This document shows positions 24,076-51,641 of a stretch of 64,000 bases of DNA, one piece after another. Numbering within the stretch: position 1 is the stretch's first letter; every line of letters starts with the position of its first letter. Source of the stretch: an uncultured Draconibacterium sp. (GTDB lineage Bacteria; Bacteroidota; Bacteroidia; Bacteroidales; Prolixibacteraceae); contig NZ_OY781884.1 in assembly GCF_963677155.1 (NCBI RefSeq), positions 1,348,001 through 1,412,000 of the forward strand. The letters are read 5' to 3'. Below the pieces are notes generated by a model. That model did no database searches and was not told where the DNA came from. It saw only the letters and a list, made by a program, of their open reading frames with translations. Position numbers and translations under genes: made by a program.

Positions 24076-25773
24076 TTAACGATTAAGGGAAATAATCTTA
24101 TCGAAATAAGGATAAAGACTTTCCCGATGAGTAACAAAAATGATAGTTACCTTATGTCTCATTCTTTTAAGACAAGCCATAAGCAGAATTTCATTTTCAG
24201 GATCAAGAGCAGAAGTGGCCTCATCAAGCAGTAGCATGTCAGGATTTCGAAGTAATACCCTTGCCAAAGCAAGTCGTTGCCTTTCCCCTCCTGAAAAATG
24301 GTATTGATAGTTTACAAGATAAGTATCAAGACCTTGTTTCTGCCTATTTATTAGATCCGGGGCATTTACTTGATGCAATACATCCATAATTCTCGCATCA
24401 CTTAGCTCTTCTTTTGAATCCCAAATCAAGTTTTCTCTTAGTGTTCCATCAATAAAGAAAGGATCCTGCGGCAAATAACCAAGTTTGTTCTTCCATGCAG
24501 GCAAATCTTCTAAAGTAAGTGGTTTCCCGTCTACTGCAATTGTTCCGTTTTCCGGCTCAAACAGTCCCGCTACCAAATCGAGAAGGGTGGTTTTTCCGCA
24601 ACCCGATTCCCCCACAATTCCTGTAATTTTTCCGGCAGGAATGCGTTCTGAAAAATGGTCAAAAAGCAAATGTCCAGACTCATAACCAAACGACAGATCC
24701 TTAATATCCAAATAATTGGTTAAAGATATCGCTTCACTCTTATTGATTTCGCAAAAACATCCATTCTTAAGTTCTTTTTCTGTTTCCAGTACCAATTTTA
24801 CAGAGCCAACATTCGACAGCATTAAATTCAGGTCGTTATTTAATCCCGTAAATTTGGGATAAATCCGGCTAAAAAGAAGGATTAAAACAAACAACGAGGC
24901 AAGTGGCAAATGTATTATTTGATACGACAGATAAACCAGTGCAACCAAAGCAAGAACTCCTGCCAGTGTAAACATAAGCTGGGGAAATGCCCTATTCCTG
25001 ACTTGTTTGTTTTGATAATAAAGCATCTGACTGTTTGTTTCTTCAAACTTTTCATAATAAAATCTTTCGGAATGGTGTACCTTTGCAATTTTTACTGTTA
25101 GCCAAAATTCGTCGATACGTTTTAACATATGACGAAATGCCTGCACATTGGCAGACCCAAGCCATTTTGCTTTTTTTAGATATTTTCTCAGAAAGAAGAA
25201 TACAACTATTCCTATTGCAATTACAATGAGTGAAAAACTGACAGATATAGCCAATGCCAAAATAACATGGGCTGCAATAAAGATAATCTTTCCCGCTAAT
25301 GACAAATAAAAATAATAATAGGTCGTCATCTTGGGAATTTCGGTAGTAAGCACCTGTATGTGGTTGTGTTTGCTCTTTCCATTTAAAAAAGCCCAATCGC
25401 TTAAAATGATTTTCTTAAAAAGTCGTTTACGTATTGAATAAGAAAAATCCTGTTGATAAACAGACTGCCACACCGACTGAAAGTAACTTAGGACAGCCAC
25501 AAACAATAAACCACTGGTAAATATAATTAATACAGCCTCTAGATTCAATTCAATGCCCATCCTGCTAAATATTGAATTTAACGCTGTTGCCCATGAAGGT
25601 TGATCCCCTGCTGAAGTTGGGGTCAACAGCCCCAACATTGGTATAAGCAAAACAACAGTTATCCCCTGAGTAAACCCCTGTAACAGGGTAATTAAGAATA
25701 GTAAAATAATTTTGGCTGGGCTATACTTCAGAAATAACCCCAAACTCCTAATTATAAAATTGTGTTCACCCAT
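24076..25773 (-). CDS. ABC transporter, fused membrane and ATPase domains (lasso exporter D)
   Basis: The 565-residue half-transporter has about six helices in residues 1-330. The ATPase domain follows, with Walker A GIVGESGCGKTT (about 395), the signature HFSGGERQRLALARVLL and Walker B NPDMLLLDEATSALD. No N-terminal peptidase (C39) domain is present, as usual for lasso D proteins, which export mature peptide and can give self-immunity. It is last in the minus-strand string and overlaps the nucleotidyltransferase gene by 8 bp. It is the only exporter in the island, so it probably serves all precursors. Confidence 0.9.
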   Translation of the reverse strand: MGEHNFIIRSLGLFLKYSPAKIILLFLITLLQGFTQGITVVLLIPMLGLLTPTSAGDQPSWATALNSIFSRMGIELNLEAVLIIFTSGLLFVAVLSYFQSVWQSVYQQDFSYSIRKRLFKKIILSDWAFLNGKSKHNHIQVLTTEIPKMTTYYYFYLSLAGKIIFIAAHVILALAISVSFSLIVIAIGIVVFFFLRKYLKKAKWLGSANVQAFRHMLKRIDEFWLTVKIAKVHHSERFYYEKFEETNSQMLYYQNKQVRNRAFPQLMFTLAGVLALVALVYLSYQIIHLPLASLFVLILLFSRIYPKFTGLNNDLNLMLSNVGSVKLVLETEKELKNGCFCEINKSEAISLTNYLDIKDLSFGYESGHLLFDHFSERIPAGKITGIVGESGCGKTTLLDLVAGLFEPENGTIAVDGKPLTLEDLPAWKNKLGYLPQDPFFIDGTLRENLIWDSKEELSDARIMDVLHQVNAPDLINRQKQGLDTYLVNYQYHFSGGERQRLALARVLLRNPDMLLLDEATSALDPENEILLMACLKRMRHKVTIIFVTHRESLYPYFDKIISLNR

Positions 25774-26788
25774 GAAATACCCTTCTTTTGATAAAACTAT
25801 ATGGTCGGTACAGAAAATATACTAAACGGAATGATGAGTCAATCTCTTTTAAATCACCTAACCTAAAAAAAGTTCGTGAAAGAATCTTGATCTTATAAAA
25901 AAAAGAAGGAAACAAATACCATAAATACATGAAATGGAGAAATATTGCTGAAGTTTCAAAATGCTGAATTTTGTCGTCTTTGATATAGTTAAATGCATGC
26001 CGAACAAGGTATTTAGAAATTCGTTTTTTCCTGCTAAATGGCATTTGAGTATTAAAAAAATGATCCAGCAGAATGTTGGTTTGTCCGATAATTCGCCATG
26101 CCTGGAATTGATCTGCCAGTTTTCGGAATATATGCCTGTCAATTTGTAAAAATGGATAGTCACGAATGTCCATTAGCCATTTCAAGCGATTCCAACCGTG
26201 CCGGGCCCCATGAATTAGCAAATACAATAATTCAAATTCAGGAGATAAAACAGAAAATGTCCTCCCCGAAAAGTTCATTAGAGTTAAGTTTCGCTCAATA
26301 ATCAGTTTGATTTTATTTTGATTAGCAGGCACTTCATGCATCAGTATCCAATGGATTTCTACGCAGATGTTAAGTTCCTTGTTATAAAAACTCAGATGAT
26401 GGATGGTTTGGGTAAACTGTTCTTGCTGCATTTCCTGTTGTGGCCAAAACATTCCTTCTGAAAACAGAAACCTATTTGACGTAAGAATATCTACGACCGA
26501 ATTGATCTTTTTTTTGTCGATCAACAGGTCAATATCATGAGAAATACGTATAGTAGGATCTTTATAGATTCGGAGAGATAACAGTAAACCTTTTAAACAG
26601 ATGTATGAGATGTTGTTTTTAGTTAGTAAATCGGTTACAAAAAGAAAGTTTTTTACTGCTTCCAGTTGCTTCAGTTTCTCAGAGAGGAATTCTTTTGCGC
26701 GATTTTCTCCCAGCCAACAGTCAATTTGCTGATGGCTGAGGCGATGCCGTTCATGGAGATAGGCTCTGTTTTGTAAAAGATCGGTCAT
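25766..26788 (-). CDS. Nucleotidyltransferase-fold protein (lasso-associated, PF14907-like)
   Basis: The 340-residue protein has the DNA-polymerase-beta-like signature in ISYICLKGLLLSLRIYKDPT followed by the metal-binding pair in SHDIDLLIDK (about residues 85-95), and a helical C-terminus. Such proteins occur in HPr-kinase-type lasso clusters. In the pseudomycoidin cluster the PsmN homologue decorates the kinase-phosphorylated Ser with hexose. A similar sugar or nucleotide addition here is inference. It lies between the exporter and the APS kinase on the same strand. Confidence 0.75.
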   Translation of the reverse strand: MTDLLQNRAYLHERHRLSHQQIDCWLGENRAKEFLSEKLKQLEAVKNFLFVTDLLTKNNISYICLKGLLLSLRIYKDPTIRISHDIDLLIDKKKINSVVDILTSNRFLFSEGMFWPQQEMQQEQFTQTIHHLSFYNKELNICVEIHWILMHEVPANQNKIKLIIERNLTLMNFSGRTFSVLSPEFELLYLLIHGARHGWNRLKWLMDIRDYPFLQIDRHIFRKLADQFQAWRIIGQTNILLDHFFNTQMPFSRKKRISKYLVRHAFNYIKDDKIQHFETSAIFLHFMYLWYLFPSFFYKIKILSRTFFRLGDLKEIDSSFRLVYFLYRPYSFIKRRVFHG

Positions 26789-26805
26789 TCACCAAAATTA
26801 TTGAA

Positions 26806-27438
26806 TTAATAGGAATTCTGCACTACTGAGCGGATATAATGGTTGTGCACAAGCCAGGAAACAATCTCCAGAACTGTATCTTTCGGCAATTGATCTTTGG
26901 TATGGACAGTTAACGAAGGCTTAACAGGTGGTTCATAAGGACTGCTGATCCCTGTAAAATCGTTTAGTTCGCCATTCAGTGCTTTTTGATATAATCCCTT
27001 GGCATCCCTTTCCATACAGATTCTCAAAGGTGTATCCACAAATACCTCAACAAAACAATCGTTGCCAATAATCGACCGGGCTATCTCGCGGTCAGTTGTA
27101 AAAGGGGATATAAATGCCGTTATCGCAACTACCCCGGCATCATTCAGCAGACGGGCGATTCCTGCAACCCTTCTGATATTTTCCTTTCTCCCTTCCGGAG
27201 AAAAGTCCAGATCACGATTAATGCTTTGGCGGGTATTATCGCCGTCCAAAATCAATGTTCTGATTCCCGATTGAAACAGGACTAGTTCCAGATAACGGGC
27301 AATGGTTGATTTACCTGCACCGGAAAGGCCTGTCAGCCAAACCACAAATGACTTTTGCCTGTTCATTTCTTCACGTTGTTCCCGACTGATCAGGAATGAC
27401 TCAACCAGTATATTTGGTTTTCTGAGAGAATTCGCCAT
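26806..27438 (-). CDS. cysC: Adenylylsulfate (APS) kinase
   Basis: The 210-residue protein has the P-loop GLSGAGKSTIARYLE near residue 35, the DGDNTRQSINRDLDFSPEGR substrate motif and the following REN/RRVAGIARLL helix, all standard for CysC. It makes PAPS, the sulfate donor of sulfotransferases, from APS and ATP. No ATP sulfurylase or PAPS reductase is adjacent. It sits inside the lasso string, 18 bp upstream of the nucleotidyltransferase, alongside several sulfotransferases. This suggests dedicated donor supply rather than cysteine synthesis. Confidence 0.94.
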   Translation of the reverse strand: MANSLRKPNILVESFLISREQREEMNRQKSFVVWLTGLSGAGKSTIARYLELVLFQSGIRTLILDGDNTRQSINRDLDFSPEGRKENIRRVAGIARLLNDAGVVAITAFISPFTTDREIARSIIGNDCFVEVFVDTPLRICMERDAKGLYQKALNGELNDFTGISSPYEPPVKPSLTVHTKDQLPKDTVLEIVSWLVHNHYIRSVVQNSY

Positions 27439-27579: not shown

Positions 27580-27888
27580 CTAAAAATACAAAAACTGATT
27601 TGTATGAAAAAACGAATCCAGTTCATCATGCATCGTAATAATATCGCTTGCTATAGCCTTATCCAGAAAATCTTGCACTTCACGGGAGCATTGTTCTTCA
27701 GTTGCATCAAACTCCGATAACAAACATTGAATGATTTCGGAAAAACCTTTAGGTTCTTCAATCAGTCCCCATATACGTTTTCCTACCGGATTCAGACCAA
27801 AATATTTTCCCTTTTCGATGTGCATCATCACCTGGTGGTTATCTAATTCTCCATCGATGATTTGCTGATTGCGGCTGTATTTTTCCAT
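27580..27888 (-). CDS. Lasso B1 / PqqD-like RiPP recognition element (copy a)
   Basis: The 102-residue protein has the PqqD fold signature VMMHIEKGKYFGLNPVGKRI, then W-x-L-I and a helical C-terminus. These proteins bind the precursor leader and present it to protease and cyclase. Paralogues at 33069, 42930 and 46000 support the start at MEKYSRNQQI (27888). The C-terminal 15 residues (HDELDSFFHTNQFLYF) differ from the paralogues, as though the end was replaced. No B2 protease follows it. Confidence 0.88.
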   Translation of the reverse strand: MEKYSRNQQIIDGELDNHQVMMHIEKGKYFGLNPVGKRIWGLIEEPKGFSEIIQCLLSEFDATEEQCSREVQDFLDKAIASDIITMHDELDSFFHTNQFLYF

Positions 27889-28118: not shown

Positions 28119-28206
28119 CCACGGGCGTTGTCCGTGGCAAGGAGAGGAGACAGAAGGTAGACCCCAGCCCCGAAGGGGTTGAATTTTTCGTTGCAGCCTT
28201 GCAACA
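28119..28206. repeat. Palindromic intergenic element (copy 1)
   Basis: Hairpin arms CCACGG (28119-28124) and CCGTGG (28132-28137) are followed by a CCCC-GAA-GGGG hairpin and GTTGCA-GCCT-TGCAAC. Other copies at 33405, 43267 and 46336 have CCATGG/CCATGG arms. The change is compensatory, so pairing seems to be maintained. It lies between a sulfotransferase and a B1 gene in each case. Confidence 0.6.
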
Positions 28207-28208
28207 TA

Positions 28209-28538
28209 TCACACCGTTAACCTTCCGTCTTTGTCTACATACCCAAACTCTTTCATTGTGTCGTAATTGTATTCCACAATTTTATCAATTTGTACTTTAT
28301 AAAGGAAATCATGATAATTGCCTATTTTCCCTTTACAGAAAAAGCGTTCGCATTTTTGCATTTCTTCGTTAAACCCTTTTACCTGTTCCTTTTGTTGAAG
28401 TATATAAAATCGGTATTTGCGATTGCTGTCTTTAACCTTTTTTCATTGTATTTAAGCCCCAGAAATCTACAATACTCTTGAATGTATCCACAGGATTTTG
28501 CAGCATATCGTTCGTAACGAACAAAGTAAACCGGAATG
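28209..28538 (-). pseudogene. Sulfotransferase 3' remnant (ST1)
   Basis: Only the last third of a sulfotransferase can be read, across several frames: pieces matching VRYE, FLGLKYNEKRLKTAIANTDF, then a tail ending DKDGRLTV-stop at 28209-28211, like the paralogue at 33490. The 5' part is gone, and the remnant abuts the stop of cyclase C1. A deletion joined the two. Confidence 0.7.
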
Positions 28539-30428
28539 TCAGGTTGTTTCTGTTTTTTTTAAATCGAGCTTATTAATATGCAGTGCATTAAAAACATTAG
28601 TTATACTTAATTTTTTAAGTACAACTTCCCCTTCAAATGCAATTTTAAGGTCGGAATATTCTGCTTTTATTGCTTCTTTATTAAGATATGGAGAATTGAT
28701 TTTATCTAAATCAATCTCTTTTAATGCCTGCATCCGGGTATTCAATAAATGTTTCACTCTATAGGTTTCCGGAGGTTTTTGTTTGTAAAGTAATTCCTTT
28801 GGTAAATAAGGTGTAACAGCTTTGCGATACAAATAACGGCTTATACCTTGTTTGTAAAAAAGATTCTCCGGCATGGCCAGTGCAAATTCTACAACACGTT
28901 TATCTAACAAGGGATATAAATACTTGACGCCATGCATTTTTCCCAATATATTCCAACTCTCCATTCGATCCTGATGATATCCTAAATTCAAATAGAACAA
29001 CTGACGATCTCTTATGCTGCTATTTGGCGAGGGAGTATTTTTACGTATATCTTCGTATTGTAAAAAGTCACTATATTTTTTACCAACAAGTTTATTGTAC
29101 GCTTTTAATTTAATCTTTTTTACAGTACTCCAACTACATGGGAGTAATTTATCAGGTAAGAATGAATAAAATAATGTTTTGCCAAAATTTTTAGCTACAC
29201 GTAAAAGCTTAAGAGAATCGTTAGTTTTATTTTGGTCAATTAAATTCTTAAATGCCTGAATCCACCTTCCATTTTTTATTAAATCAATGTGGTTACTGCG
29301 CGATCGCATGGTTAGTAATTCGTCTCCGCCAAAACCTGAGAAGATTAACTGCACTCCTTGTTGTTGGGCAATTGGCAATGTTATACGCTCGTAATCAATC
29401 ATTGTACAACCATGCCGACTAACATCATGCTCCTCAATTATCTTTTTAGCCTCATCAACTGAATAATTTATTTCGGAATGAACAAACCCCTCTTTACTTG
29501 CAATTTCCCGGGCATCGGCCCATTCATGGTAAGATTTATCATCTTCGGGTTTCGGCCTGCACCAATTGTAAGTAAAAAAATCTCTGCCTGAATCAATTGC
29601 TTTTCTGCCGGCCATGAGAGCAACAGGACTGGAATCCAGCCCTCCACTTAAATGTGCTCCAATGTTGATACCCGGAGGCAATCGGTCTGCCACTGCTTGT
29701 TCAAGCAAGTTTGCTAATTGGCTTACATATTCCTCCTCAGTTTCATATTTTATTGGCTCAATTAATTCAGGATGCCAGTAAGTTTCTGATTCTAGAACAC
29801 CGTCATTAAAAGTTGCAACCGTAGCACGTGGTATTTTATAAATGTCAGCATAAAATGTTTCTTGTTGGTTATGATTGGTGCTTGATTTTAAATAGTTCAA
29901 GACTACTGTATCATTTAAAGTATGCGGGACAGATGGATCTGACAGAATAATATCTATCGAATCACTAACCAACAGAAACTGATCGCATAAGTAATAATAA
30001 ACAGGAATAACTCCTAAATGATCCCTTACAACAACAGTTTCCTTACTATTTAAATCGTGCAATACAAAGCCAAAATCTCCGATTAAATGTTCAGCAAATG
30101 AATTGCCATAACTTTCATATGCATTTACAATGAGATCGCAAACATTTTCTGATTCGTAATTTAAAAGCTTGCTGAGTTCTTTTTGATTGTCGATACGAAT
30201 ATCACCAACAAGCCAATAAAAGCTTTTGGCAGCTCGAATGGTGAATCCTTTTTTTAAAGCACTTAATTGAGAATAACTGACATTTTCAATACCAGTGCTT
30301 ATATCCTCAAGTTGTTCAGAATGATGCCAACTATTGGAATTAACATCATTTGCTATAATAATGTCATTAATTTCACCACTATTAACAGAAGTTTTATCGA
30401 AACGACGATAAAAATAAAAGGATGCCAC
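28539..30428 (-). CDS. Lasso cyclase C1 (asparagine-synthetase-like)
   Basis: The 629-residue protein has an N-terminal glutaminase-like domain (1-210) without the catalytic Cys at position 2 (MASFYFYRRF), as usual for lasso cyclases. The AMP-forming synthetase domain has the pyrophosphate loop LSGGLDSSPVAL (about 260) and SGFGGDELL. It would adenylate the core Asp/Glu side chain and close the macrolactam with residue 1. It follows precursor A1 by 35 bp on the same strand. It is more divergent than C2 and C5, which resemble each other. Confidence 0.9.
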   Translation of the reverse strand: MASFYFYRRFDKTSVNSGEINDIIIANDVNSNSWHHSEQLEDISTGIENVSYSQLSALKKGFTIRAAKSFYWLVGDIRIDNQKELSKLLNYESENVCDLIVNAYESYGNSFAEHLIGDFGFVLHDLNSKETVVVRDHLGVIPVYYYLCDQFLLVSDSIDIILSDPSVPHTLNDTVVLNYLKSSTNHNQQETFYADIYKIPRATVATFNDGVLESETYWHPELIEPIKYETEEEYVSQLANLLEQAVADRLPPGINIGAHLSGGLDSSPVALMAGRKAIDSGRDFFTYNWCRPKPEDDKSYHEWADAREIASKEGFVHSEINYSVDEAKKIIEEHDVSRHGCTMIDYERITLPIAQQQGVQLIFSGFGGDELLTMRSRSNHIDLIKNGRWIQAFKNLIDQNKTNDSLKLLRVAKNFGKTLFYSFLPDKLLPCSWSTVKKIKLKAYNKLVGKKYSDFLQYEDIRKNTPSPNSSIRDRQLFYLNLGYHQDRMESWNILGKMHGVKYLYPLLDKRVVEFALAMPENLFYKQGISRYLYRKAVTPYLPKELLYKQKPPETYRVKHLLNTRMQALKEIDLDKINSPYLNKEAIKAEYSDLKIAFEGEVVLKKLSITNVFNALHINKLDLKKTETT

Positions 30429-30463: not shown

Positions 30464-30589
30464 CTAACTAAGGTGTCCGGTACTGGCTTCAGTTGTAAGA
30501 TACATACCACTTTCAGTTTCATCAATATCCAAATCAATTATTTCTGGGGTATTCCATTCTTGTAATTTGTTTTCTTTTTCGTCCATCAT
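30464..30589 (-). CDS. Lasso precursor A1
   Basis: The 41-residue peptide (MM start, 30589 or 30586) has leader motif EWNTPEIIDLDIDETE and predicted core SGMYLTTEASTGHLS. Thr sits at -2, the ring acceptor Glu at core position 8, and Ser is last. Ring closure Ser1 to Glu8 is predicted by rule, not shown. It lies 35 bp before cyclase C1 and 115 bp after the broken precursor A2. Confidence 0.85.
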   Translation of the reverse strand: MMDEKENKLQEWNTPEIIDLDIDETESGMYLTTEASTGHLS

Positions 30590-30704: not shown

Positions 30705-30850
30705 TTACGATGGTCCTTGATAATCAGCAACGGTTTCACCTCCATTTAAGAGCTTATCTTCTGTTTGCATCATGTTTAAATCAATTACTTCGGGATCCTC
30801 CAAACTTTTTTCTCCGAGTTTGTACTTTTTATTTCGGTTTTATTTTCCAT
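30705..30850 (-). pseudogene. Lasso precursor A2, frameshifted
   Basis: The ATG at 30848-30850 opens a leader whose W-E-D-P-E motif is broken: around 30790 the run after TTT has two G where three would keep frame. With one G added the peptide is 48 residues with core DKLLNGGETVADYQGPS, that is Thr at -2, Glu8 and C-terminal Ser. As written, translation stops early. It may be an indel error or a dead copy. Confidence 0.75.
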
Positions 30851-30930: not shown

Positions 30931-31795
30931 TCAAACATTAAGGCATCCGTTTTTGTCGATATATGAAAATTCGTTCATTGTGTTGTAATTGTATTGAATG
31001 ATTAGCTGAATTTGCTCTTCAGATAAAAAATCACGATAATTGCCAATTTTTCCCTTTCCAGAAAAAACGTTTGCACTCTTGTATTTTTTCACCAAAGCCT
31101 TTTTCCTTTTCCTTTTGTTGTAGGATTTTAAAGTCGGTATTTAAGATTGCTTTTTCCAGGCGGTCTTGTTCATATTCAAGCTCCAGAAACAGTATAATGT
31201 TTTTAAAAGTTTCTATTGGGTTCATCAACATATCTTCGTAGCGAACAAAAAGAACCGGAATTTCGCTTTGGTTTTTCCAACTTTTTACGTGTCCTTGCCA
31301 GGACAGCAATATTTGGCGAAGTTGTCCTTGTTTTTTCCCTGCAATAGCACCATGCTTATTTAAAATAAGATTTATAGTTTTTTCTATTTTCCCTGCACTA
31401 TGGTTGGCGTATGACACACATACATCGAGTGGATTACGAACAAAACAAACTGCACTTTTGCTTATTTCGGACGGAAATATTGGAATGCCTTCTTTTGTAA
31501 AGGTATAGGCATCGTGCGTTTTCTTGTATACCTGCTCCCCTTCTTCTTCGTACTTTTTTGATAAAGCTCGGTACATATCGGGGCGGTACAGGTCAACTTC
31601 ATCTGGGGACATTTCGAAGGGGTTCATGGCTATTTCTTCTTCAAAATCGATTGCAGAGCTTGCAATTCTATTCGATTCTATATCTTCAAGATCTAACGGA
31701 GTTTTCGATCTTTTCAGATAATTAGCCAAAAACATTCGAAACCAGGTGTTGCCTGATTTTGGATAAGATGCCAACCATACAATGTTTTTCTTCAT
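30931..31795 (-). pseudogene. Sulfotransferase ST2, C-terminus frameshifted
   Basis: Residues 1-250 are intact, with the PAPS 5'-phosphosulfate loop ASYPKSGNTWFRMFLANYL and the 3'-phosphate motif FVRNPLDVCVSYANHSA. An extra A in an A5 run near 31050 shifts the frame at WKGK, so the printed ORF (31031-31795, 254 aa) loses the last 35 residues. Those remain readable to TGA at 30931-30933 (IGNYRDFLSEEQIQ and on). The start overlaps the kinase K1 stop (ATGA). The catalytic core may still fold. Confidence 0.8.
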
Positions 31796-32600
31796 AACTT
31801 AATTTGTTCTTCAATAAAACGCATGGTGTCGTATATATTACTAATCTGAGGCCGTTCAATACTTGTAACTTTTACTTTCGTGGCTAACAAAAAGAGTTGC
31901 TTAAAATATTCTTTTTCCGTTTCGGGCATTCCTTTCAAATAGACTTTGCGGTAGATTTGTTTGCGAAGTGCATTATATTTCTGAATACCATTCAGCACAT
32001 TTGCTTCGTAAGCCTCTTTATTACGAATGTTCAGAATAAAAATTTGGTTTAAATCGAAATCTGAATAGTTTTCCTTTCTCATTTTAAGGTAAAACTTTTC
32101 TATTTAAGGTCTGATTTTTTCCAATTCGTTATTCTCAATTTCTAATTTTTCAAGTGTATCGTCCCATAATCTAATCCGGGTTTTATAGGGAAGGATAACT
32201 GTTTTAGACGAATCTATTTTCATAGAACTAATATCGTCATTTATATATTTCGCCCCGTTTTGACAGAATGCTGCAGTAACCGATGATTTACCAACACCCG
32301 AGCGTCCACATATCATAATCCCTTTGCTTTTGTATTCAAACGAACTGCCATGGAAAGGTAACAGTTGTCTTTGATGTAATACGGCACCCAATACAGACCC
32401 TTCTAGAAAAAGGTTGATAGAAGCTTCATCCTCATACGGACAAATGGAAACATTTTACCATCTTGTACACGGTATCGGGCAACATTCTTTACGTCGAAAA
32501 AGAAATCAGTTTCTTTATTTTTTAAATGAGTGCGATTTAAAATGCAATTTTCAGGTTCACCCAATTCCTTAAAGTTTTGTTTTATTTCAACTGTTATATT
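31792..32600 (-). pseudogene. HPr-kinase-like K1, broken
   Basis: The P-loop CGRSGVGKSSVTAAFCQ and the NDD motif are readable in 32104-32391 and the C-terminal helices in 31792-32082. Between them an in-frame TAA (32104-32106) sits where paralogues have Glu or Gly (IRP-E/G-xKFYL). A frameshift near 32450 separates the N-terminal domain (VKNVARYRVQDGK). It is two lesions away from a full paralogue of K2, and its 3' end keeps the ATGA overlap with ST2. Confidence 0.82.
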
Positions 32601-32653
32601 CAGGAGTTTAAATTTTATCCAAATTGTTTTTATACCATCAATGTGATGATTAA

Positions 32654-43351: not shown

Positions 43352-44212
43352 TCACACCGTCAGCCTTCTGTCTTTATCAACATATCCAAACTCTTTCATT
43401 GTATCGTAATTATATTCCACAATTTTATCAATTTGTTCTTTGGAAAGAAAATCATGGTAATTGCCTATTTTCCCTTTCCAAAAAAACTGTTTGTTGCGTT
43501 GCATTCTTTCTTTAAATCCGTTTTCATTTTCCATTTGCTGCAATTGCTTAAAATTGCTGTTGCAAATGGCCCTTTTTAACCTTTCTTCCTCATACTCCAA
43601 TCCAAGAAAACGTACAATGTTGCCGAAAGTTTCCACCGGAGATAAAAGCATATCTTCATAACGGGCGATATGTACCGGTATTTTCAACTGGTTTTTCCAG
43701 CTTTGCACATGGTTTCCCCATGATAACAGCTTCTGCCTTAACTGGCCATCAGGTCCTCCTGCAATAAATGCCTCTTCATTCAATAAAAGCTTAAATGTTT
43801 TTTCAATTTTATTTGCCCCGTGATTGGCATACGATACACACACATCGAAGGGATTACGCACAAAATACACAGCACACCTGCTAACATCTTCAGGAAAAAT
43901 CGGTTCGTTGTTCATATTCAAGGTATATGCATCATGAACTTTCTTGTAGCAATTTTCTTCCTTTCTTTCTATTTTTTCTGACAAAGCCCGGTACATATCA
44001 GGACGGTAGGTATCTACCTCGTCATGATATAACTCGAAAGGGTTCAACCCTGTTTGTTCTTCAAAATCGACTGGACTGCTTGCAATAGAGGTCGCTTCTA
44101 TCTTTTCAAGGGGAAGGGGCTTCTCTGCATTTTGCTCATAATTTGCCAGAAACATGCGAAACCATGTATTGCCCGATTTCGGATAAGATGCCAGCCAAAC
44201 AATGTTCTTCAT
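43352..44212 (-). CDS. Sulfotransferase ST4
   Basis: The 286-residue protein has WLASYPKSGNTWFRMFLANY and FVRNPFDVCVSYANHGANK as PAPS-binding motifs. The start at 44212 overlaps the K3 stop (ATGA). A longer frame to 44260 only reads through K3. It is diverged from ST3 and ST5 (for example RRLTV tail and QFFWKGKIGNYHDF), so it may act on a different precursor. Confidence 0.92.
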   Translation of the reverse strand: MKNIVWLASYPKSGNTWFRMFLANYEQNAEKPLPLEKIEATSIASSPVDFEEQTGLNPFELYHDEVDTYRPDMYRALSEKIERKEENCYKKVHDAYTLNMNNEPIFPEDVSRCAVYFVRNPFDVCVSYANHGANKIEKTFKLLLNEEAFIAGGPDGQLRQKLLSWGNHVQSWKNQLKIPVHIARYEDMLLSPVETFGNIVRFLGLEYEEERLKRAICNSNFKQLQQMENENGFKERMQRNKQFFWKGKIGNYHDFLSKEQIDKIVEYNYDTMKEFGYVDKDRRLTV

Positions 44213-45042
44213 GACAAAATTTCTTTTTCTATGAAGTGCATCGTGTCGTGAATGTCGCAAATAGCAGGCCTTGTTATGCGTACCACAGAAACTTTTTTAG
44301 CCAGGGTAAACAGCTGTTTAAAATATTTTTTTTCGGTTTCGGGCATGCCTTTAAGATAAACCCGTCGGTATATCTGGTGCCTGAGAGCATTATATTTTGC
44401 AATACCGTCAAGTTCTTTTGCAAAATATTCTTCTTTTTGATGGGAAGCAAGTACAAATATCCGGTCCAGTTTATGCCCGGTATCAATTCTTTCTTCCGCC
44501 GACAAATAAAATTTATCCATTCCGGGGCGGATCCGGCTTAGTCCATTTTGTCCGATCTCTAATTTTGTAAGCGCTTCTTTCCATAATTTTATCCGTGTTT
44601 TTACCGGTAAAATTGTTATTCCCGGATCGGAAACGGCTACAGGTGAAATGTCATCGTTTATGAAAACACCACCCCTTTGACAAAAAGCCGCTGTTAAAGA
44701 CGATTTTCCCACACCTGAATGTCCGCAAATCATTATGCCCTTGCCATTATATTGAAAAGAACTTCCGTGAAAAGGCAATATCCCACGCTGATGAAGAAGG
44801 GCCCCCAATACAGAACCTTCAAGAAAAAGATTGACTGAATTTTCATCCGCAATTTCGTACGGGTTAACCCAAATTGTTTGTCCGTTTTGTACCCGGTAGC
44901 GGGCGACGTTTTTTATATCCAGAAAAAAATCATCCTCTTTTATTTTGAAATAAGGACGGGAAAAGATATAAGAATTGACAAGTTCCGGTTCCCCTTTTTT
45001 ATATTTTATATGGATGTCTTCTGACAAATTCGATAGATTCAT
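44209..45042 (-). CDS. HPr-kinase-like lasso tailoring kinase K3
   Basis: The 277-residue protein has P-loop CGHSGVGKSSLTAAFCQ and FINDDISPVAV, then the conserved YLKGMPETEKKYFKQLF. Predicted to phosphorylate the terminal Ser of a precursor, by analogy with PadeK of paeninodin. It is the first gene of the K3-ST4-B1c-B2c module. Its N-terminal 35 residues are almost identical to those of K4. Confidence 0.9.
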   Translation of the reverse strand: MNLSNLSEDIHIKYKKGEPELVNSYIFSRPYFKIKEDDFFLDIKNVARYRVQNGQTIWVNPYEIADENSVNLFLEGSVLGALLHQRGILPFHGSSFQYNGKGIMICGHSGVGKSSLTAAFCQRGGVFINDDISPVAVSDPGITILPVKTRIKLWKEALTKLEIGQNGLSRIRPGMDKFYLSAEERIDTGHKLDRIFVLASHQKEEYFAKELDGIAKYNALRHQIYRRVYLKGMPETEKKYFKQLFTLAKKVSVVRITRPAICDIHDTMHFIEKEILS

Positions 45043-45112: not shown

Positions 45113-45705
45113 TCACATGTCTTTAACAAGTAAGTTATTATCTGCATAGTAGCAATATACCGGCGAGAAAAATCTAAACAAGTTGACCACAAATTTTGCC
45201 TCAGGATCTTGCGAATCAAGAGCCTTTGCATGGCAATACTTCTGAAGAAACGGTTTGTTTAACAGATTTCTTAATTCCTGCTTTTCCTGCTCCGATAACA
45301 GAAAAAGTTCTTTATCCGGATGGTTGACATCTGCTTTTTTTCTCCAGCGAATGCGTTCGGTTGTTACTTCCTTTAAAATTTGTCTGAAAGCATATCGTTC
45401 TATCCCCTCGTATATTTTCAGATGAGACGGCAGGTTATAAGCGAACTCGACCAACGGAACATCCAACATGGGGTAACGGAATTCTACCCGGAACATCCGG
45501 GCGCTTAGTTCGGAATCAACAATTCGCTGCTCTACACCAATATCGAACAACTCACGGCGATGGTGGGCTTTGGTTGAATAATACCTACGATATCCCTTCA
45601 AAAATGTTTTTAGTTTTGGCATTAATCCGTATTTTTGAATATACTGTTTTTTTTAAAAAGCAGTATTGGCTTCTTTTTAACATTGAATGTTCAAGTCCTA
45701 AATGC
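45113..45705 (-). pseudogene. Lasso cyclase C4, C-terminal fragment
   Basis: The frame 45113-45622 carries the last 169 residues of a C3-type cyclase (FRVEFRYPMLDVPLVEFAYN, RWRKKADVNHPDKELFLL). A second frame (45622-45700) supplies the preceding LGLEHSMLKRSQYCFLKK. No synthetase loop remains. Just upstream the sequence switches directly into B2d, so a deletion has joined the middle of B2 to the last third of the cyclase. Confidence 0.85.
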
Positions 45706-46003
45706 CTATAACCGAGGCTATTCCTCTTCGCTGTAACATAAACCGGGCTGTAAATGATTTCACAAGGCACACGTTTTTCCAAACAGCAAATTTAATAGCT
45801 CGCGAAGCGGCATTGCGTATTTTAATGAGAAACAAAGAATCCGGCCTTACTTTTAACTTTTCAGAAGGAATTAGTAAACCAGTACATTTCTTATATGGCA
45901 GTATTTTCAATAAAATTTTAGAATACCACGATAATACCAATGCTTCGAAAAATAATAATTTCTGCTCCTTACTAAGCTTAAAGATTTTTTTTAACAACTT
46001 CAT
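45706..46003 (-). pseudogene. Transglutaminase-like B2 (copy d), truncated
   Basis: From ATG 46001-46003 (overlapping the B1d stop) the protein follows copy c through KNVCLVKSFTARFMLQRRGI and then ends at the deletion junction with C4. The catalytic Cys is present, but the His-containing C-terminus (HAWLI) is missing, so it should be inactive. Confidence 0.85.
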
Positions 46004-46263
46004 GAAGTATGAACTAAGTCTGCATCTAATGCTTTTTGTAAAAAGGCATCCACTTCTTGTTTGCACACTTCTTCTTCAATATCGAATTCGGTTAACAGTT
46101 GATCTGTAATTTCAGAAAATGTTTTTGGCTCATTAATCAACTCCCAAATTCTTTTTCCTACCGGGTTTAATCCAAAATATTTCCCTTTTTCTATGTGCAT
46201 CATAACCTGGTTGTTGTCTAACTCACCATCGATGATTTGTTGGTTGCGGTAGTATTTTTCCAT
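46000..46263 (-). CDS. Lasso B1 / PqqD-like RiPP recognition element (copy d)
   Basis: The 87-residue protein is nearly identical to copies b and c (YFGLNPVGKRIWELINEPKT, DIEEEVCKQEVDAFLQKAL). It is intact although its coupled B2 is truncated, so it could work with a protease from elsewhere in the island. Confidence 0.9.
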   Translation of the reverse strand: MEKYYRNQQIIDGELDNNQVMMHIEKGKYFGLNPVGKRIWELINEPKTFSEITDQLLTEFDIEEEVCKQEVDAFLQKALDADLVHTS

Positions 46264-46420: not shown

Positions 46421-47281
46421 TTACACCGTCAGCCGTCCGTCTTTATCAATATATCCAAACTCTTTCATCGTGTCGTAGTTATATTCTACAATTCGTTGTA
46501 TTTGTCCTTCTGAAAGATATTCTCGATAGTTGCCAATTTTTCCTTTCCAGAAAAAATTTTCACATAACTGCATTTTCTCCCGAAATCCTTGTTCCTGTTC
46601 CATTTGTTGAAGGTTTTTAAAATCACTGTTAATTATTGCACGTTTCAAACGTTCTTCATTACACTCCACCCCCATAAAACGAACAATTTCTCCAAAGGTT
46701 TCAACCGGTTTTTGGAGCATATCTTCGTAACGAACAAAATGGATAGGTATTACTGATTGGTTCTTCCAACTTTGAACGTGACTTTTCCATGACATTAAAA
46801 TCTGACGGAGTTGTCCCCCTTTCTTTCCAGACAGGGAAGAATTTTCATCTAAAATAAAATCAAGTGTTTTTTCAATTTTCTTTGCACTATGGTTAGCGTA
46901 TGAAACACAGACATCCAATGGATTACGCACAAAACAAACGACTCCTTTGCTGATATCCGCAGGAAAAAGAGGTTCTCCATTTCGATTTAGGGTATAAGCA
47001 TCGTGCATTTTTTTGTAACGAATCTCTCCATTTTTTTCAGCCTTCTTTGATTGAATATAGTATAAATCCGGGCGATATAAATCGACTTCATCAGGAAATA
47101 ATTCAAAGGGGTTCAATCCGATTTGCTCCTCAAAATCAATTGCGTTGCTTGAAATGGAAGTTGGCTCTATCTCTTCGAGAGATACCGGGTTTTCTGTATC
47201 TTTCTGATAATTTGCCAGGAACATACGAAACCATGTATTGCCCGATTTGGGATAAGATGCCAGCCAAACAATATTTTTCAT
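46421..47281 (-). CDS. Sulfotransferase ST5
   Basis: The 286-residue protein is nearly identical to ST3 (differences include VVCFVRNPLDV against VVYFVRNPLDV and FGEIVRFMGVE against FTGIVRFLGLE). It has the same PAPS motifs. The start overlaps the K4 stop by 4 bp. The similarity continues into the 3' spacer and B1d, showing recent segmental duplication. Confidence 0.93.
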   Translation of the reverse strand: MKNIVWLASYPKSGNTWFRMFLANYQKDTENPVSLEEIEPTSISSNAIDFEEQIGLNPFELFPDEVDLYRPDLYYIQSKKAEKNGEIRYKKMHDAYTLNRNGEPLFPADISKGVVCFVRNPLDVCVSYANHSAKKIEKTLDFILDENSSLSGKKGGQLRQILMSWKSHVQSWKNQSVIPIHFVRYEDMLQKPVETFGEIVRFMGVECNEERLKRAIINSDFKNLQQMEQEQGFREKMQLCENFFWKGKIGNYREYLSEGQIQRIVEYNYDTMKEFGYIDKDGRLTV

Positions 47282-48111
47282 GATTCTATTTCATTTTCAA
47301 TAAAACGTATGGTTTCCTGAATATCGCAGATTTGAGGCCTTAGAATATCGGTAACCTTGACTTTGTTTGCCAGAAGAAACATTTTCCCAAAATATTTTTT
47401 TTCTGTTTCGGGCATCCCCTTTAAATATATTCTGCGATAAACCTGTTTTCTCAAGGCGTTGTATTTTCCCATCCCTTCGAGTTCGGTTGCCCGATATTCA
47501 TTTTTATTGTGGGTAGAAAGAATAAATATGTGGGATAGGTTATGTTCCGAATCAGTTTTTTTCTCCATTGGCAGGTAAAACTTATCCATTCCAGGTCGTA
47601 TCCGCTGCAAATTGCCGGCTCCCATTTTTAACTTTTGAAGCGCATCATCCCATAGTTTTATCCGCGTTTTAACCGGAAGGATGGTCGTTTTTGAACCGGC
47701 AACAGTTATAGGGGTGATATCATCGTTAATAAAGGTTGCCCCTTCCTGACAAAAAGCTGCCGTTACCGATGATTTTCCTGCTCCGGAATGGCCACAGATA
47801 ATGATTCCCCTGTCTTTGTATGAAAAAGAACTACCGTGAAACGGTATTATCCCACGTTGATGCAGAAGGGCGCCCAGAACTGAACCTTCAAGAAAAAGAT
47901 TTACCGATTCCTCATCGGCATCTTCATACGGGCAGATCAAAACTTGCTGTCCGCTTTGTACCCGGTAGCGGGCAATATTTTTTATGTCCAGAAAAAAATC
48001 ATCCTCTTTTATTTTAAAATGAGGACGGGAAAAGATATAAGAATTGACAAGTTCCGGTTCCCCTTTTTTATATTTTATATGGATGTCTTCTGACAAATTC
48101 GATAGATTCAT
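47278..48111 (-). CDS. HPr-kinase-like lasso tailoring kinase K4
   Basis: The 277-residue protein has P-loop CGHSGAGKSSVTAAFCQ, FINDDITPI and YLKGMPETEKKYFGKMF. The N-terminal quarter matches K3 and the C-terminal third matches K2, which looks like a recombinant of the two paralogues. It lies 60 bp downstream of the methyltransferase gene. Confidence 0.9.
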   Translation of the reverse strand: MNLSNLSEDIHIKYKKGEPELVNSYIFSRPHFKIKEDDFFLDIKNIARYRVQSGQQVLICPYEDADEESVNLFLEGSVLGALLHQRGIIPFHGSSFSYKDRGIIICGHSGAGKSSVTAAFCQEGATFINDDITPITVAGSKTTILPVKTRIKLWDDALQKLKMGAGNLQRIRPGMDKFYLPMEKKTDSEHNLSHIFILSTHNKNEYRATELEGMGKYNALRKQVYRRIYLKGMPETEKKYFGKMFLLANKVKVTDILRPQICDIQETIRFIENEIES

Positions 48112-48171: not shown

Positions 48172-49332
48172 CTATTCTGAATAAATTTTGATATTTTCTT
48201 TATTATGAGTAATAAAAAGTGGAAACAACTGCCCTTTATCTACAGGTATTGGCTTTGGGAAAATGTGTAATACAGGTGCCCAGCAGGATTCAAGAGGTGG
48301 TCTGTTTTCGTAAATCAGATCTTCAGTAAATTGTAAATGTATCCATTTAACCAATCCGAAAGCTTTACCGGACTGGGTGACTGGCATTTTTACAGTTTTG
48401 TTTTGCTCTGTAAGATGTTTGCGACTGGTAAGATCAAATCGAAGCAACTCCACGGATTCGCTTAAGGCATTGGGCATGATCTGTTTTAGTTTGGCACCAT
48501 TGATCGGATACATGAGCGGTTTAAAACGGTTAAATGATGACAAGTCAAATCCACTGACGTCCTGAATGTTAAAGAATGGAAGCAATGTGGGTATTTTGCC
48601 TACTAAAACACCCCATGTAGCAATTTGACTGGGTAAAATCACTGCATTTTTCTTTACAAGCCGAACCATGGCATCTTCCATGGTTGGTAGCACATTTTCT
48701 TCCAAAAGGTTATTGTCTACAATCTCTGAAACTAGTAGGTCTGCTCTTTCAGGCAAATCTTCGCCAATCCTGAGTTCTGTAGATTTTTTTAAAATTACGG
48801 AAACCCGATCTTGCAGATTATTTTTAATGATATTCTCCCGGGCAGCTTGACCAATCAAAGGTTCCTTTTCACAGGTATAAACTTTTTTGGCCCCGGCACG
48901 TGCGGCCATCAGGGCCAAAAGACCGGTACCAGTTCCGATTTCAAGTACAATTGAATCTGGCTTGATAAATGCACGAAGCGCTCTGTCATAAATATCGTTA
49001 CGCGTCTGATCATTTATGATGTTAAAATGCCATCCGGGAACCTTCTTCTTCAGTGCCCATTCTGCATGGAAACGCACCTGTAAATTATCAGGCTCCATTT
49101 CCAATGCTTTAACCGCAATCCTTTTTCCTATATCCTTTTTCGAAGAAGTCTTTTCAGATAAAAGATAGACCGCATGACCAAATTTGGCGAGTTCTTCGGC
49201 AAACCGGGGGTGTTTCTTCAACTTCAGGATAAACCGTTGTATGTCTTCTGGAAACTCATTGTACCATTGCATATATACTTCTTTTGATATGATATTTTTA
49301 GGAATTTTCTTCAGCTGATTGGAAAGAACCAT
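48172..49332 (-). CDS. PRMT-like class I SAM methyltransferase
   Basis: The 386-residue protein has a helical N-terminal region (1-105), then a Rossmann fold with LEIGTGTGLLALMAARAGAK and CEKEP. It then has SEIVDNNLLEENVLPTMEDA, which resembles the double-Glu segment of PRMT7-type arginine methyltransferases, followed by a beta-barrel-like C-terminus. Its start overlaps the end of C5 by 35 bp, so it belongs to the A5-C5 unit. The A5 core has no Arg, so the target may be another residue, another precursor or another protein. Confidence 0.78.
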   Translation of the reverse strand: MVLSNQLKKIPKNIISKEVYMQWYNEFPEDIQRFILKLKKHPRFAEELAKFGHAVYLLSEKTSSKKDIGKRIAVKALEMEPDNLQVRFHAEWALKKKVPGWHFNIINDQTRNDIYDRALRAFIKPDSIVLEIGTGTGLLALMAARAGAKKVYTCEKEPLIGQAARENIIKNNLQDRVSVILKKSTELRIGEDLPERADLLVSEIVDNNLLEENVLPTMEDAMVRLVKKNAVILPSQIATWGVLVGKIPTLLPFFNIQDVSGFDLSSFNRFKPLMYPINGAKLKQIMPNALSESVELLRFDLTSRKHLTEQNKTVKMPVTQSGKAFGLVKWIHLQFTEDLIYENRPPLESCWAPVLHIFPKPIPVDKGQLFPLFITHNKENIKIYSE

Positions 49333-51145
49333 ATTTTTTTACCAGCGCAACATATCGGAGGTAAAGCGTATATTGCCTCCAGTTCCTTACATTTTTCAAC
49401 CTATCTTTCGAAATCGGTTGGTCAAAAACTTTTTTGAAGGCTTCCGGTTTAAAAAAAGGAAGGTGTTCTCCAGCAGGTAAGGAATAAAAAAGCTTTCCCA
49501 GGTATTCTTTACTGTTTTGGAGGTCTCTTAAAGAACAGGCTATACGCAGAGGTTCCTCTTTGCCTTTCCGGATTCGGATTTTTTCTGTCAGAATGTCTTT
49601 CATGGCTTCCCTGTAGAGCAAACGGGGCTGGAAATTTTTGTAGGTATATTCAGCAGGCAGGCTAAACCAAAAATCCAATACCTCCTTATCCAATAGCGGA
49701 TATTTGTATTCAAAGCCGTATCGTTCGGCATTGATAGCCCAAGATTCCATTCGTTCTGGTAAATGATGTGATTCGAGTAGATTTAACGCAAACCGGGTGC
49801 GATTTCCGTATCCAAACGGATTCGTTTCTTTATGTAGAAAAATTTGTTTCCAGTGTTTTTTAATGAATGAAAAGCGTAGGAATCGTAGAATTGACCGATC
49901 TGTTTTACCTGCCTTATATACAGGCAAAAGGCCAAAAGGAATGCATAACGGAAGTACATCAGTACGAAATTTCAAAATCGTTGCTTTTATCCCTTTAACC
50001 CTGGCATACTTCAACAAAGAAAGCCATTTAAAGCTGAAAAACAAATGATTTACTGTTCCCCGCAAGCTGAGCGAAACGAATTCATCCCCGCCCCATCCAC
50101 TGAAAAACGTTTCAATGTTGTCTTTTTCTGCCATCTGCATAACCGGGTGTTCGATGGGCATTGTTTCAAATTCAGGAAGAATGGTATCTTTAGCTGGTTC
50201 ATATTTTGGGGGTCTCAAGTATTTTACAGTTACCTTTTTATCATCCCTGAATGCTTCTATAAATTCCTTTTCATTGGCTCCGTCTACCGGATCTTCGAAC
50301 GTTTCCGGGCTCCATGAATAACCTGTCAATGATTTTTTATCTAGTGTATGGTCGGCAACAATTGAAGCAATTCCACACGAATCAATACCTCCGCTGATAT
50401 GCATCCCGGTTTTCCCTGGTTCCATCCGGTTGACGGTTGCAGAAACAATCCGTTTCCGCAGCCCGACAACGGCATCATCGAATGTGAGTGTTTTATCTTT
50501 CTTAATTTTTCCCGGTTCCCAAAAAGGTTTGGAAGTGCAGTTCCTGCTATTCGAATAACTGACATAATGCCCCGGAATTACTTTATAAACATTTCTGAAA
50601 GAAGTTTCCGTATAGAGAGTATCATATCGGAAATGACGGTCAATCACTTTACGCTCTGAGAGAGAAACCGGAACAAAGCCGGATTTGACCAAGCCGAATT
50701 CATGGGAAGTAAATATGAGTTTCTCCTCCGATTTCCAATAAACCAAAGGACGCGTTCCGATATGGTCGCGAAGCAGGCAGACTTCCTTCTTTTTCTTATC
50801 TACAACAACGACGGCAAAATCCCCGTTAATATGGTTGGCACATAATGCCCCCCATTGCCGGTAGGCTTTGGCAAAAGCTTCTTCGGGAGAAACAAAATCA
50901 AAATATTGTTTTAATTTTTCACCGTTATAAATACGAATGTCTGCAACAACCAGCACATCCGCATCACTGTAAATCCCCGCCTTGGGCTTCCGATCCGGAT
51001 GATGGCAGTACCCCACGGCAACTGACTCTTCCTTTTTTGCATTAAGGATAAACCCCTGATACCCCGTTGCTTTAGCCAAATAGGTTATCTCTTCCAGGCT
51101 AACGGCCTTATCATCTAGATTAATAATACCACAGATAAAACCCAT
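49298..51145 (-). CDS. Lasso cyclase C5 (asparagine-synthetase-like)
   Basis: The 615-residue protein is a close paralogue of C2: MGFICGIINL start, LLRDHIGTRPLVYW, loop ISGGIDSCGIASIVADH, SGWGGDEFVSLSL and YKYPLLDKEVLDFW. All synthetase motifs are intact. It follows precursor A5 (365 bp upstream) and is coupled to the PRMT-like gene. Confidence 0.92.
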   Translation of the reverse strand: MGFICGIINLDDKAVSLEEITYLAKATGYQGFILNAKKEESVAVGYCHHPDRKPKAGIYSDADVLVVADIRIYNGEKLKQYFDFVSPEEAFAKAYRQWGALCANHINGDFAVVVVDKKKKEVCLLRDHIGTRPLVYWKSEEKLIFTSHEFGLVKSGFVPVSLSERKVIDRHFRYDTLYTETSFRNVYKVIPGHYVSYSNSRNCTSKPFWEPGKIKKDKTLTFDDAVVGLRKRIVSATVNRMEPGKTGMHISGGIDSCGIASIVADHTLDKKSLTGYSWSPETFEDPVDGANEKEFIEAFRDDKKVTVKYLRPPKYEPAKDTILPEFETMPIEHPVMQMAEKDNIETFFSGWGGDEFVSLSLRGTVNHLFFSFKWLSLLKYARVKGIKATILKFRTDVLPLCIPFGLLPVYKAGKTDRSILRFLRFSFIKKHWKQIFLHKETNPFGYGNRTRFALNLLESHHLPERMESWAINAERYGFEYKYPLLDKEVLDFWFSLPAEYTYKNFQPRLLYREAMKDILTEKIRIRKGKEEPLRIACSLRDLQNSKEYLGKLFYSLPAGEHLPFFKPEAFKKVFDQPISKDRLKNVRNWRQYTLYLRYVALVKKYGSFQSAEENS

Positions 51146-51509
51146 CTACTTTCGAAACAAACTATTTTTCACATTTATCATTTTACAAAAATCCAATTAC
51201 AAAACTTGAATGCAGCTATTATTGTCCGGTTAAGAAAGATTGGATTCAAACAGATTACCTCACTGCGTTTGCATTGACAACATTATTGGATAATTATTTA
51301 GGAGGCAAAAGAACTTATTATCCCGAACTTTCAAAAAAATGAACCCTCGACTCACTCTGGCAAAGGAATTCTTTTATATAAAAGTAGAAACGCCACAAAA
51401 TAAACTTATTATGAAAAGTCGTTGCATGCAATATCCGACTTTAAAACAATACATGTATTTCCACTTTGGGTTTTGTCTACATCCAAATCAAAACTTATCT
51501 GTTTTTGAA
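51146..51509. other. Spacer with an unassigned remnant
   Basis: About 360 bp between C5 and A5 has no intact gene. A + strand frame without start (about 51212-51342) reads DWIQTDYLTAFALTTLLDNY and ends GGKRTYYPELSKK-stop, like the C-terminus of an unidentified, possibly mobile-element, protein. Confidence 0.3.
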
Positions 51510-51641
51510 TTAGCTGATATGTGGGGATGTAAAATAATCTTCGACACCAGTAAGTGTAGGCGCGCTTTCTGTTCTATCTACGTCCAGGTCTATAATTTCC
51601 GGTAATTGCCATAATTGTTTGGCATTTTCTTCGTTGTTCAT
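51510..51641 (-). CDS. Lasso precursor A5
   Basis: The 43-residue peptide has leader LWQLPEIIDLDVDRTE and core SAPTLTGVEDYFTSPHIS. It has Thr at -2, Glu at core position 9, a Tyr and several Ser/Thr in the tail, and a C-terminal Ser. The leader keeps W-x-x-P-E although E-T is replaced by Q-L. It heads the A5-C5-methyltransferase-K4-ST5-B1d string. Confidence 0.85.
   Translation of the reverse strand: MNNEENAKQLWQLPEIIDLDVDRTESAPTLTGVEDYFTSPHIS

Follow-up and report, generated by a model that had tools for sequence, protein, structure and literature searches.

The 64-kb window analysed here, a stretch of the genome of an uncultured Draconibacterium sp., carries a lasso-peptide island on its minus strand (51.6 to 24.1 kb; Table 1), in which genes for an HPr-kinase-like protein (K) are paired with genes for a sulfotransferase (ST). 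The K-ST pair is real and widespread, and we incline to the view that the two proteins form a two-enzyme tailoring cassette of lasso clusters. Its biosynthetic genes are five for cyclases (C), whole or in pieces, four for B1, three for B2, all of them damaged, and three intact ones for precursors. It further holds four K/ST pairs and the remnant of another ST, together with genes for a methyltransferase, the adenosine 5'-phosphosulfate (APS) kinase CysC, a nucleotidyltransferase of the NTP_transf_5 family (NT), which we liken to PsmN on the strength of its family name, and an ATP-binding cassette (ABC) exporter. Profile searches bear out the B1 gene at 46.0 kb, to which the three other B1 genes are alike by eye, and the cyclase, APS kinase, nucleotidyltransferase and exporter genes listed by an initial annotation of the window; B2 was listed there as well, and all three of its copies are broken. 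The cyclases are of the lasso/Asn-synthase type. Cyclase and B1 score above the Pfam cut-offs; the NCBIfam cyclase and PqqD models were matched below theirs.

In all four pairs the ST gene begins within the stop codon of the K gene (ATGA), giving start-stop overlaps at 31792-31795, 34347-34350, 44209-44212 and 47278-47281. The initial annotation had described four modules with such overlaps; all four overlaps were recovered, and intact pairs are limited to K2/ST3, K3/ST4 and K4/ST5, since in-frame stops make K1 a pseudogene and ST2 has a frameshift at its 3' end. Sulfotransfer_1 has six matches across the 5.27-Mb genome, five above the cut-off and one below, all inside the island.

The likeness of K to HPr kinases is supported by the match of a K profile to PDB entry 1jb1 (E 7e-10), by a match of K3 to NCBIfam hpr-ser (E 5e-8, far below the model cut-off) and by Pfam Hpr_kinase_C, which was matched in 19/19 aligned K proteins, those of the window scoring under the curated cut-off. 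The Walker A motif and the Asp pair are kept in K. The ST proteins match Sulfotransfer_1, and their site columns are nearly invariant among 117 K-linked STs (ST5 numbering): K12 in 114/117, K91 in 116/117, and H93, R119, S127 and G247 each in 117/117. We take the roles of these columns, namely the 5'- and 3'-phosphosulfate sites and the catalytic Lys/His, to be those of SULT enzymes. A structure model of ST5 (predicted local distance difference test, pLDDT, 93.9; 23 sequences) had as its best Foldseek match Teg12 with 3'-phosphoadenosine 5'-phosphate (PAP) and teicoplanin aglycone (E 6e-12, template-modelling (TM) score 0.67, 22% identity), followed by SULT-type enzymes and StaL; a sequence search also placed Teg12 on top. 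By its conserved sites and predicted fold, ST is probably a sulfotransferase of the type that uses 3'-phosphoadenosine 5'-phosphosulfate (PAPS), and would transfer a sulfo group. A set of lasso-specific ST residues was considered and rejected, as nearly identical columns occur in 12 sister STs from loci that have no lasso genes. Antiphage models gave no match among the four proteins tried.

The recurrence of the pair was assessed in several samples. Within the order, 247 genomes were sampled out of a larger group, the genome under study among them. In this sample ST was found in 21 and K in 27 at thresholds of E 1e-20 and E 1e-15, respectively, and all 21 were among the 27. In an ST-first scan of 84,980 species with a profile built from the lasso-linked STs of the order, the best 80 of at least 584 relatives were kept, two of which (L090 and L118) repeat contigs of the order sample (L049 and L053). 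K lay at most 1.5 kb from ST in 71 of these best 80, and 67 of the 71 had B1, B2 or C, so that the search for K-ST pairs next to lasso genes, proposed with the initial annotation, came out positive. Lasso-linked STs numbered 69 of the best 80, namely these 67 and two at contig starts that hide any K. K with no lasso gene in sight was seen in four (L094, L114, L115 and L119, the K of L115 being short and doubtful), and neither K nor lasso genes were seen in seven, including L135 near a contig start. Stricter thresholds left K, B1 and either B2 or C in 61 of the best 80. The K-linked loci among the best 80 were assigned to Bacteroidota, Chloroflexota, Verrucomicrobiota, Acidobacteriota, Pseudomonadota, Desulfobacterota, Armatimonadota, Cyanobacteriota, Actinomycetota, Bacillota, Wallbacteria and Aminicenantes, labels that come mostly from metagenome bins and may err. 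The recurrence of the pair in other genomes argues that its association in the window is not due to chance.

The dependence between the two genes runs one way. In the order sample searched from ST, K was found within 1.5 kb at 19/22 loci; one locus was cut by a contig end, and the two without a nearby K (L038 and L046) belong to genomes that carry K on another contig. Lasso-linked STs without K are rare, amounting to 2/22 order loci, plus three cut by contig ends over both ST-first samples. Searches from K covered 37 alphaproteobacterial loci (42/43 K places), 28 loci of other Bacteroidota (the genome under study, G165 and G597 not counted) and eight gammaproteobacterial loci (8/9). An ST stood beside K at 23/37, 1/28 and 3/8 of them, respectively, and K occurred without ST at 14/37, 27/28 and 5/8, which indicates that K does not need ST.

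Further features suggest that K and ST behave as one unit. Among 125 K-ST neighbours from the fetched loci and the window (109 once STs more than 90% alike were removed), 78 overlap by the chosen start, the overlap being 4 bases long in 44 cases and 8 bases long in 18; in two of the 78, values of -852 and -92 appear to be artefacts of start choice. In the 75 pairs with all four genes, the distance matrices of K and ST correlated with an r of 0.75, compared with 0.43 for K-C, 0.44 for ST-C, 0.46 for K-B1, 0.43 for ST-B1 and 0.41 for C-B1, the nearest copies of C and B1 being used. On a quick tree of 184 K proteins, the distribution of ST takes 23 changes to explain, and shuffled labels take 54.8 on average. 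A K-ST fusion was not used as proof; the only candidate, L068, has a frame-split K, though it is counted among the 125 neighbours.

PAPS can probably be made by this genome. The island CysC is a full APS kinase, and a second full APS kinase domain lies in a CysN-CysC fusion about 5-7 kb past the window end, so the island CysC is probably not the sole source of PAPS; a third, partial match elsewhere in the genome spans 45 positions (E 7e-4). The stretch 1.8-6.8 kb past the window end (L168, 1778-6753), adjacent to the lasso region, holds CysN-CysC and beside it the genes for a CitMHS/sulfate-type permease and a PAPS_reductase-domain protein, which from its position is presumably CysD. Among loci read for 7 kb or more to each side, CysC was found at 5/65 K-ST and 0/41 K-only loci, and also at 1/5 'mixed' loci. 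These counts are too few for CysC to serve as a mark of ST loci, a use that we rejected. Together with the second full APS kinase, they lend little weight to the dedicated PAPS supply suggested by the initial annotation, which was right that the island has its own APS kinase.

The island is also marked by decay, which the initial annotation had not recorded. Damage was found in K1, ST2, B2, one precursor gene and the cyclase gene at 40.0 kb, and a further frameshifted precursor remnant lies at 39.6 kb (partly by eye). One B2 copy (45.7 kb) is truncated, another (42.6 kb) is shifted before the AHAW motif and the third (32.7-33.1 kb) has a stop and indels. A test for a working B2 within the ST island was negative, the sole intact B2 of the window belonging to the neighbouring cluster. 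It is doubtful whether the strain still makes the island products. We read the island as the outcome of repeated duplication and decay, and sequencing error may be an alternative cause of the gene breaks. Coverage by long open reading frames (ORFs) was rejected as proof of local decay: it is 0.68 in the island and 0.76-0.86 in four distant 20-kb stretches, and the flanks are as low as the island (0.70 at window positions 1-24 kb, 0.47 at 51.7-64 kb and 0.67 past the window end in L168). ST3 and ST5 share 97% DNA identity and their kinases are 72% identical, which would fit a recent exchange between modules. Nonsynonymous divergence (dN) is well under synonymous divergence (dS) among intact window copies (0.20/1.16 for K3/K4 and 0.013/0.080 for ST3/ST5), dS being saturated for several window copy pairs; these values would fit retained function, at least until recently. 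The cassette genes thus appear to have been kept in this strain while the island decays, and without the B2 of the neighbouring cluster no product would be expected.

Table 1. Features of the lasso-peptide island and the intact B2 gene of the neighbouring cluster (window coordinates).
Feature	Position	Strand	Evidence or remark
Lasso precursor, predicted core SAPTLTGVEDYFTSPHIS, C-terminal Ser	51510..51641	-	leader motif
Lasso cyclase, Asn-synthase type	49298..51145	-	lass_lactam_cya E 6e-46, under model cut-off
Methyltransferase, PrmA-like	48172..49332	-	profile match; overlaps cyclase at 49.3 kb
K4, HPr-kinase-like, intact	47278..48111	-	
ST5, putative PAPS-type sulfotransferase, intact	46421..47281	-	ATGA overlap with K4
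B1 (PqqD)	46000..46263	-	PqqD E 2e-21; lasso_PqqD_Bac 78.7 bits, cut-off 80
B2 copy, truncated	45698..46002	-	
Cyclase, C-terminal remnant	45113..45622	-	resembles 40010-41713 by eye
K3, HPr-kinase-like, intact	44209..45042	-	
ST4, sulfotransferase, intact	43352..44212	-	ATGA overlap with K3
B1	42930..43193	-	by eye near-identical to 46.0-kb B1
B2 copy, frameshift upstream of AHAW motif	42551..42933	-	
Frameshifted gene, ATP-grasp-like by eye only	41710..42549	-	tested piece: no Pfam match
Lasso cyclase, C-terminus shifted out of frame (ends early)	40010..41713	-	
Lasso precursor, predicted core SGLAADSAEGFNYHPES	39266..39409	-	
535-aa protein, C-terminal sulfotransferase domain, unpaired	37598..39205	+	N-terminal part: no Pfam match
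Lasso cyclase	35457..37283	-	
K2, HPr-kinase-like, intact	34347..35168	-	start by alignment; ORF could begin at 35237
ST3, sulfotransferase, intact	33490..34350	-	ATGA overlap with K2
B1	33069..33332	-	by eye
B2 copy with stop and indels	32657..33062	-	
K1 pseudogene	31792..32640	-	in-frame stops: 1 TGA, 3 TAA
ST2, 3'-end frameshift	31031..31795	-	
Precursor, frameshift near start, C-terminal Ser	30705..30839	-	
Lasso precursor, predicted core SGMYLTTEASTGHLS	30464..30589	-	
Lasso cyclase	28539..30428	-	
ST1 remnant, 3' part of sulfotransferase gene	28200..28549	-	
B1	27580..27888	-	by eye
CysC, APS kinase	26806..27438	-	E 6e-60
Nucleotidyltransferase NTP_transf_5	25766..26788	-	E 2e-34
ABC exporter	24076..25773	-	
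Intact B2 of the neighbouring lasso cluster, which has no ST; no other intact B2 in the window	58613..59068	+	

The neighbouring lasso cluster (57632-63103, at 57-63 kb) has no ST. It contains a kinase gene, the intact B2 gene, a cyclase gene (60995-62869) and seven precursor genes, six on the plus strand and one on the minus strand, whose products all end in Ser. The predicted rings of these seven close on Asp, and those of the three intact precursors of the ST island on Glu. Between the two clusters (51734-54354 and 55646-56407) lie a formyltransferase-like gene, three tandem genes with products 175-184 aa long, of which Pfam identifies the second as a phage-tail-collar protein and the first looks like one by eye, and a YcaO gene. 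Inside the ST island, the plus-strand gene for a 535-aa protein (37598-39205) is flanked by K/ST modules of the opposite strand; the N-terminal part of this protein is, by eye, Cys-rich over one stretch.

Sister STs without lasso genes were found at eight loci, six of which were examined. At L111, L117 and L131 the sister ST lies directly downstream of Gram-negative porin genes, and L117 has four ST genes and two porin genes in a row. Sulfation of porins is possible at these three loci; both of the papers listed by a literature search on porins were unrelated. At L126 (8611-12120) the sister ST has a MatE exporter gene on one side and a YcaO gene on the other, an arrangement that resembles clusters for ribosomally synthesised and post-translationally modified peptides (RiPPs) and is without lasso genes. 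At L125 and L135 it is beside genes for TPR proteins, with a weak glycosyltransferase match at the former and a second sulfotransferase at the latter.

Precursor cores were compared between K-ST and K-only loci. A leader pattern picked out 63 candidate precursors from K-ST loci and 33 from K-only ones. Dropping 8/63 and 8/33 by hand left the hand-kept set; a rule on overlapping ORFs instead dropped 7 and 8 and left the filtered set. Fourteen 'mixed', three ST-only and two ST-and-K-apart rows were left out, and identical cores were counted once, the cores of one locus not being independent. The three intact precursors of the window have a lasso leader (Thr at -2) and, as initially annotated, end in Ser. 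A C-terminal Ser is present in 45/56 filtered K-ST cores and 18/25 K-only cores, and is the only hydroxyl that recurs at a fixed place in the predicted K-ST cores. No ring or tail position has Ser, Thr or Tyr in more than half of them, the highest fraction being 0.49, four residues after the ring acid (0.12 in K-only cores), and a fixed hydroxyl position relative to the ring acid was therefore rejected.

Gene pairing, overlap, conserved active sites, predicted fold and one-way gene-content dependence were computed directly; the substrate, the order of action and the acceptor are what these sequence data suggest. ST very probably works on lasso precursors at all, and we somewhat favour a scheme in which it acts after K, on the product of K. 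In this scheme, K would phosphorylate the C-terminal Ser of the precursor, and ST, encoded by the next, overlapping gene, would then use PAPS to sulfate this phosphorylated form, for which it would need the product of K. The acceptor would be a second hydroxyl of the core, held by the phosphoserine end, or the end group itself; cyclisation by C, leader removal by B1/B2 and export would follow. ST is placed after K mainly because a lasso-linked ST hardly ever occurs without K and K often occurs without ST. The initial annotation had proposed that these peptides are sulfated, perhaps at a site competing with or depending on phosphorylation. Sulfation gains support by inference, through the 69 lasso-linked STs of the best 80 and the kept PAPS-site and catalytic residues, and of the two relations the one-way co-occurrence favours dependence.

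The scheme was weighed against several other explanations. ST could sulfate a Tyr, Ser or Thr of the core whether or not K has acted, and the genes would travel together only because both enzymes act on the linear precursor. We regard this as the less probable course. In its favour, Tyr is commoner in K-ST cores (31/55 hand-kept against 7/25 K-only, Fisher p 0.029; 31/56 in the filtered set) and stands four residues past the ring acid in 13/55 against 1/25, and RaxST/RaxX is said to provide a bacterial precedent of sulfation. However, Tyr is absent from 24/55 hand-kept and 25/56 filtered cores; the predicted core SGDSHPTENTAGGPVS of L037, a cluster that looks complete, has none; a phylogeny-controlled comparison of core traits had only 5 independent pairs and left the Tyr difference inseparable from kinship; and independent action would leave the rarity of lasso-linked STs without K unexplained. 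Tyr was thus rejected as a general acceptor and kept as a rival for single peptides; all three intact cores of the window contain Tyr, and these three peptides could be Tyr-sulfated. It is unlikely that ST sulfates a hexose placed on phosphoserine by the PsmN-like nucleotidyltransferase. There is a precedent in pseudomycoidin (PMC8498205), and NT is present in the island and at 5/5 'mixed' loci, but its occurrence at 34/65 K-ST and 17/41 K-only loci gives no clear tie to ST, and about half of the K-ST loci show no NT within reach, where a divergent or distant NT could be missed. A sugar phosphate was rejected as a general acceptor on these counts. Because many cores are without Tyr and NT is not clearly tied to ST, Tyr is not a general acceptor and a sugar does not seem to be one, which would leave a variable core hydroxyl on the phosphorylated precursor or the C-terminal end group itself.

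For the end group, ST might add the sulfo group to the phosphate placed by K on the C-terminal Ser, forming a serine phosphosulfate (a PAPS-like mixed anhydride), or cap a serine polyphosphate, a modification known from proteobacterial kinases. We think this improbable, even though transfer between phosphosulfates should have a low energy cost and such a product, if true, would explain the need of ST for K, the lack of any other conserved core residue and the movement of the cassette between unlike cores. It is very improbable that the ST genes are relics, or that they serve to modify a glycan or protein of the cell surface and merely sit in a lasso island: the decay of the island and the porin, MatE/YcaO or TPR neighbours of the sister STs point that way, and the position of 71 of the best 80 relatives beside K, 67 with lasso genes, and the low dN relative to dS between window copies speak against it.

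Several observations weigh against the action of ST on K-phosphorylated precursors. Every B2 copy of the ST modules of this strain is broken. The ST profile was built from lasso-linked STs, so its nearest relatives lean to lasso loci, and the distance correlations compare pairs partly sampled by adjacency with nearest copies of C and B1, which lowers the values for the latter. Inheritance of K-ST as one block would yield part of the gene-content asymmetry; the 23 changes of ST state on the K tree weigh against such inheritance alone. Among the filtered K-ST cores, 11/56, some of them doubtful ORFs, have no C-terminal Ser, and 54/56 hold a non-terminal Ser or Thr, so that a core hydroxyl is nearly always available. 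At the 'mixed' loci only 6/14 cores end in Ser, and 6/14 hold Tyr.

The island shares with paeninodin-type clusters, whose kinase is reportedly PadeK, an HPr-kinase-like K, split B1/B2, an Asn-synthase-type cyclase and precursors ending in Ser. It differs from them in that each of its intact K genes has a sulfotransferase partner, in its additional APS kinase and methyltransferase genes and in its broken B2 copies. With the glycopeptide-antibiotic sulfotransferases Teg12, Teg14 and StaL, ST shares the predicted fold and the PAPS site; identity is about 22% and the TM score 0.67, and the acceptors of those enzymes are glycopeptide antibiotics. Pseudomycoidin clusters also combine K with an NTP_transf_5 protein; here a sulfotransferase is added, to which NT has no clear tie.

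Parts of the system have been described before. A 2021 review (PMC8498205) covers the phosphorylation of the C-terminal Ser by kinases, polyphosphorylation and the transfer of hexose, and names ThcoK and SyanK as kinases of phosphorylated lasso peptides. A 2014 survey saw an HPr kinase and a sulfotransferase in some lasso clusters (PMC4289311), and the review reports, from Zhu et al. 2016, that certain lasso clusters of Firmicutes contain a putative sulfotransferase gene; both accounts left the role of the sulfotransferase open. In these clusters of Firmicutes and other anaerobes, ST and HPr kinase likewise occur together with lasso genes (PMC8498205, PMC4289311). In Firmicutes the ST is described at the cluster start, in contrast to its place here directly after K, often overlapping; here, too, K-ST occurs three to four times in one genome and was traced across phyla, the ST of Zhu et al. 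2016 being compared by description only. LPP family RiPPs with LppK (PMC13381572) also combine an HPrK-like kinase, acting on a RiPP Ser, with an NTP transferase; they have another leader peptidase and are not lasso peptides, and the accessible part of that paper does not mention a sulfotransferase. The initial annotation knew of no characterised sulfated lasso peptide. None was found among the literature matches listed, which cover few subscription journals, or in the accessible parts of PMC7533575, PMC12325987, PMC7794033, PMC10352776 and PMC9484694 (the reference list of the last includes RaxX); the gene association itself had been published before (PMC4289311, PMC8498205). The literature searched gives no description of K-ST as a cassette, of its spread or of its dependence on K.

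By the counts obtained here, ST is partnered with the kinase of the C-terminal Ser across many lineages, and Tyr sulfation is unfit as a general rule. A sulfated lasso peptide, if true, would represent a new tailoring step for this class and the K-ST pair a portable two-gene cassette, and a serine phosphosulfate, for which we know of no precedent, would be new chemistry.

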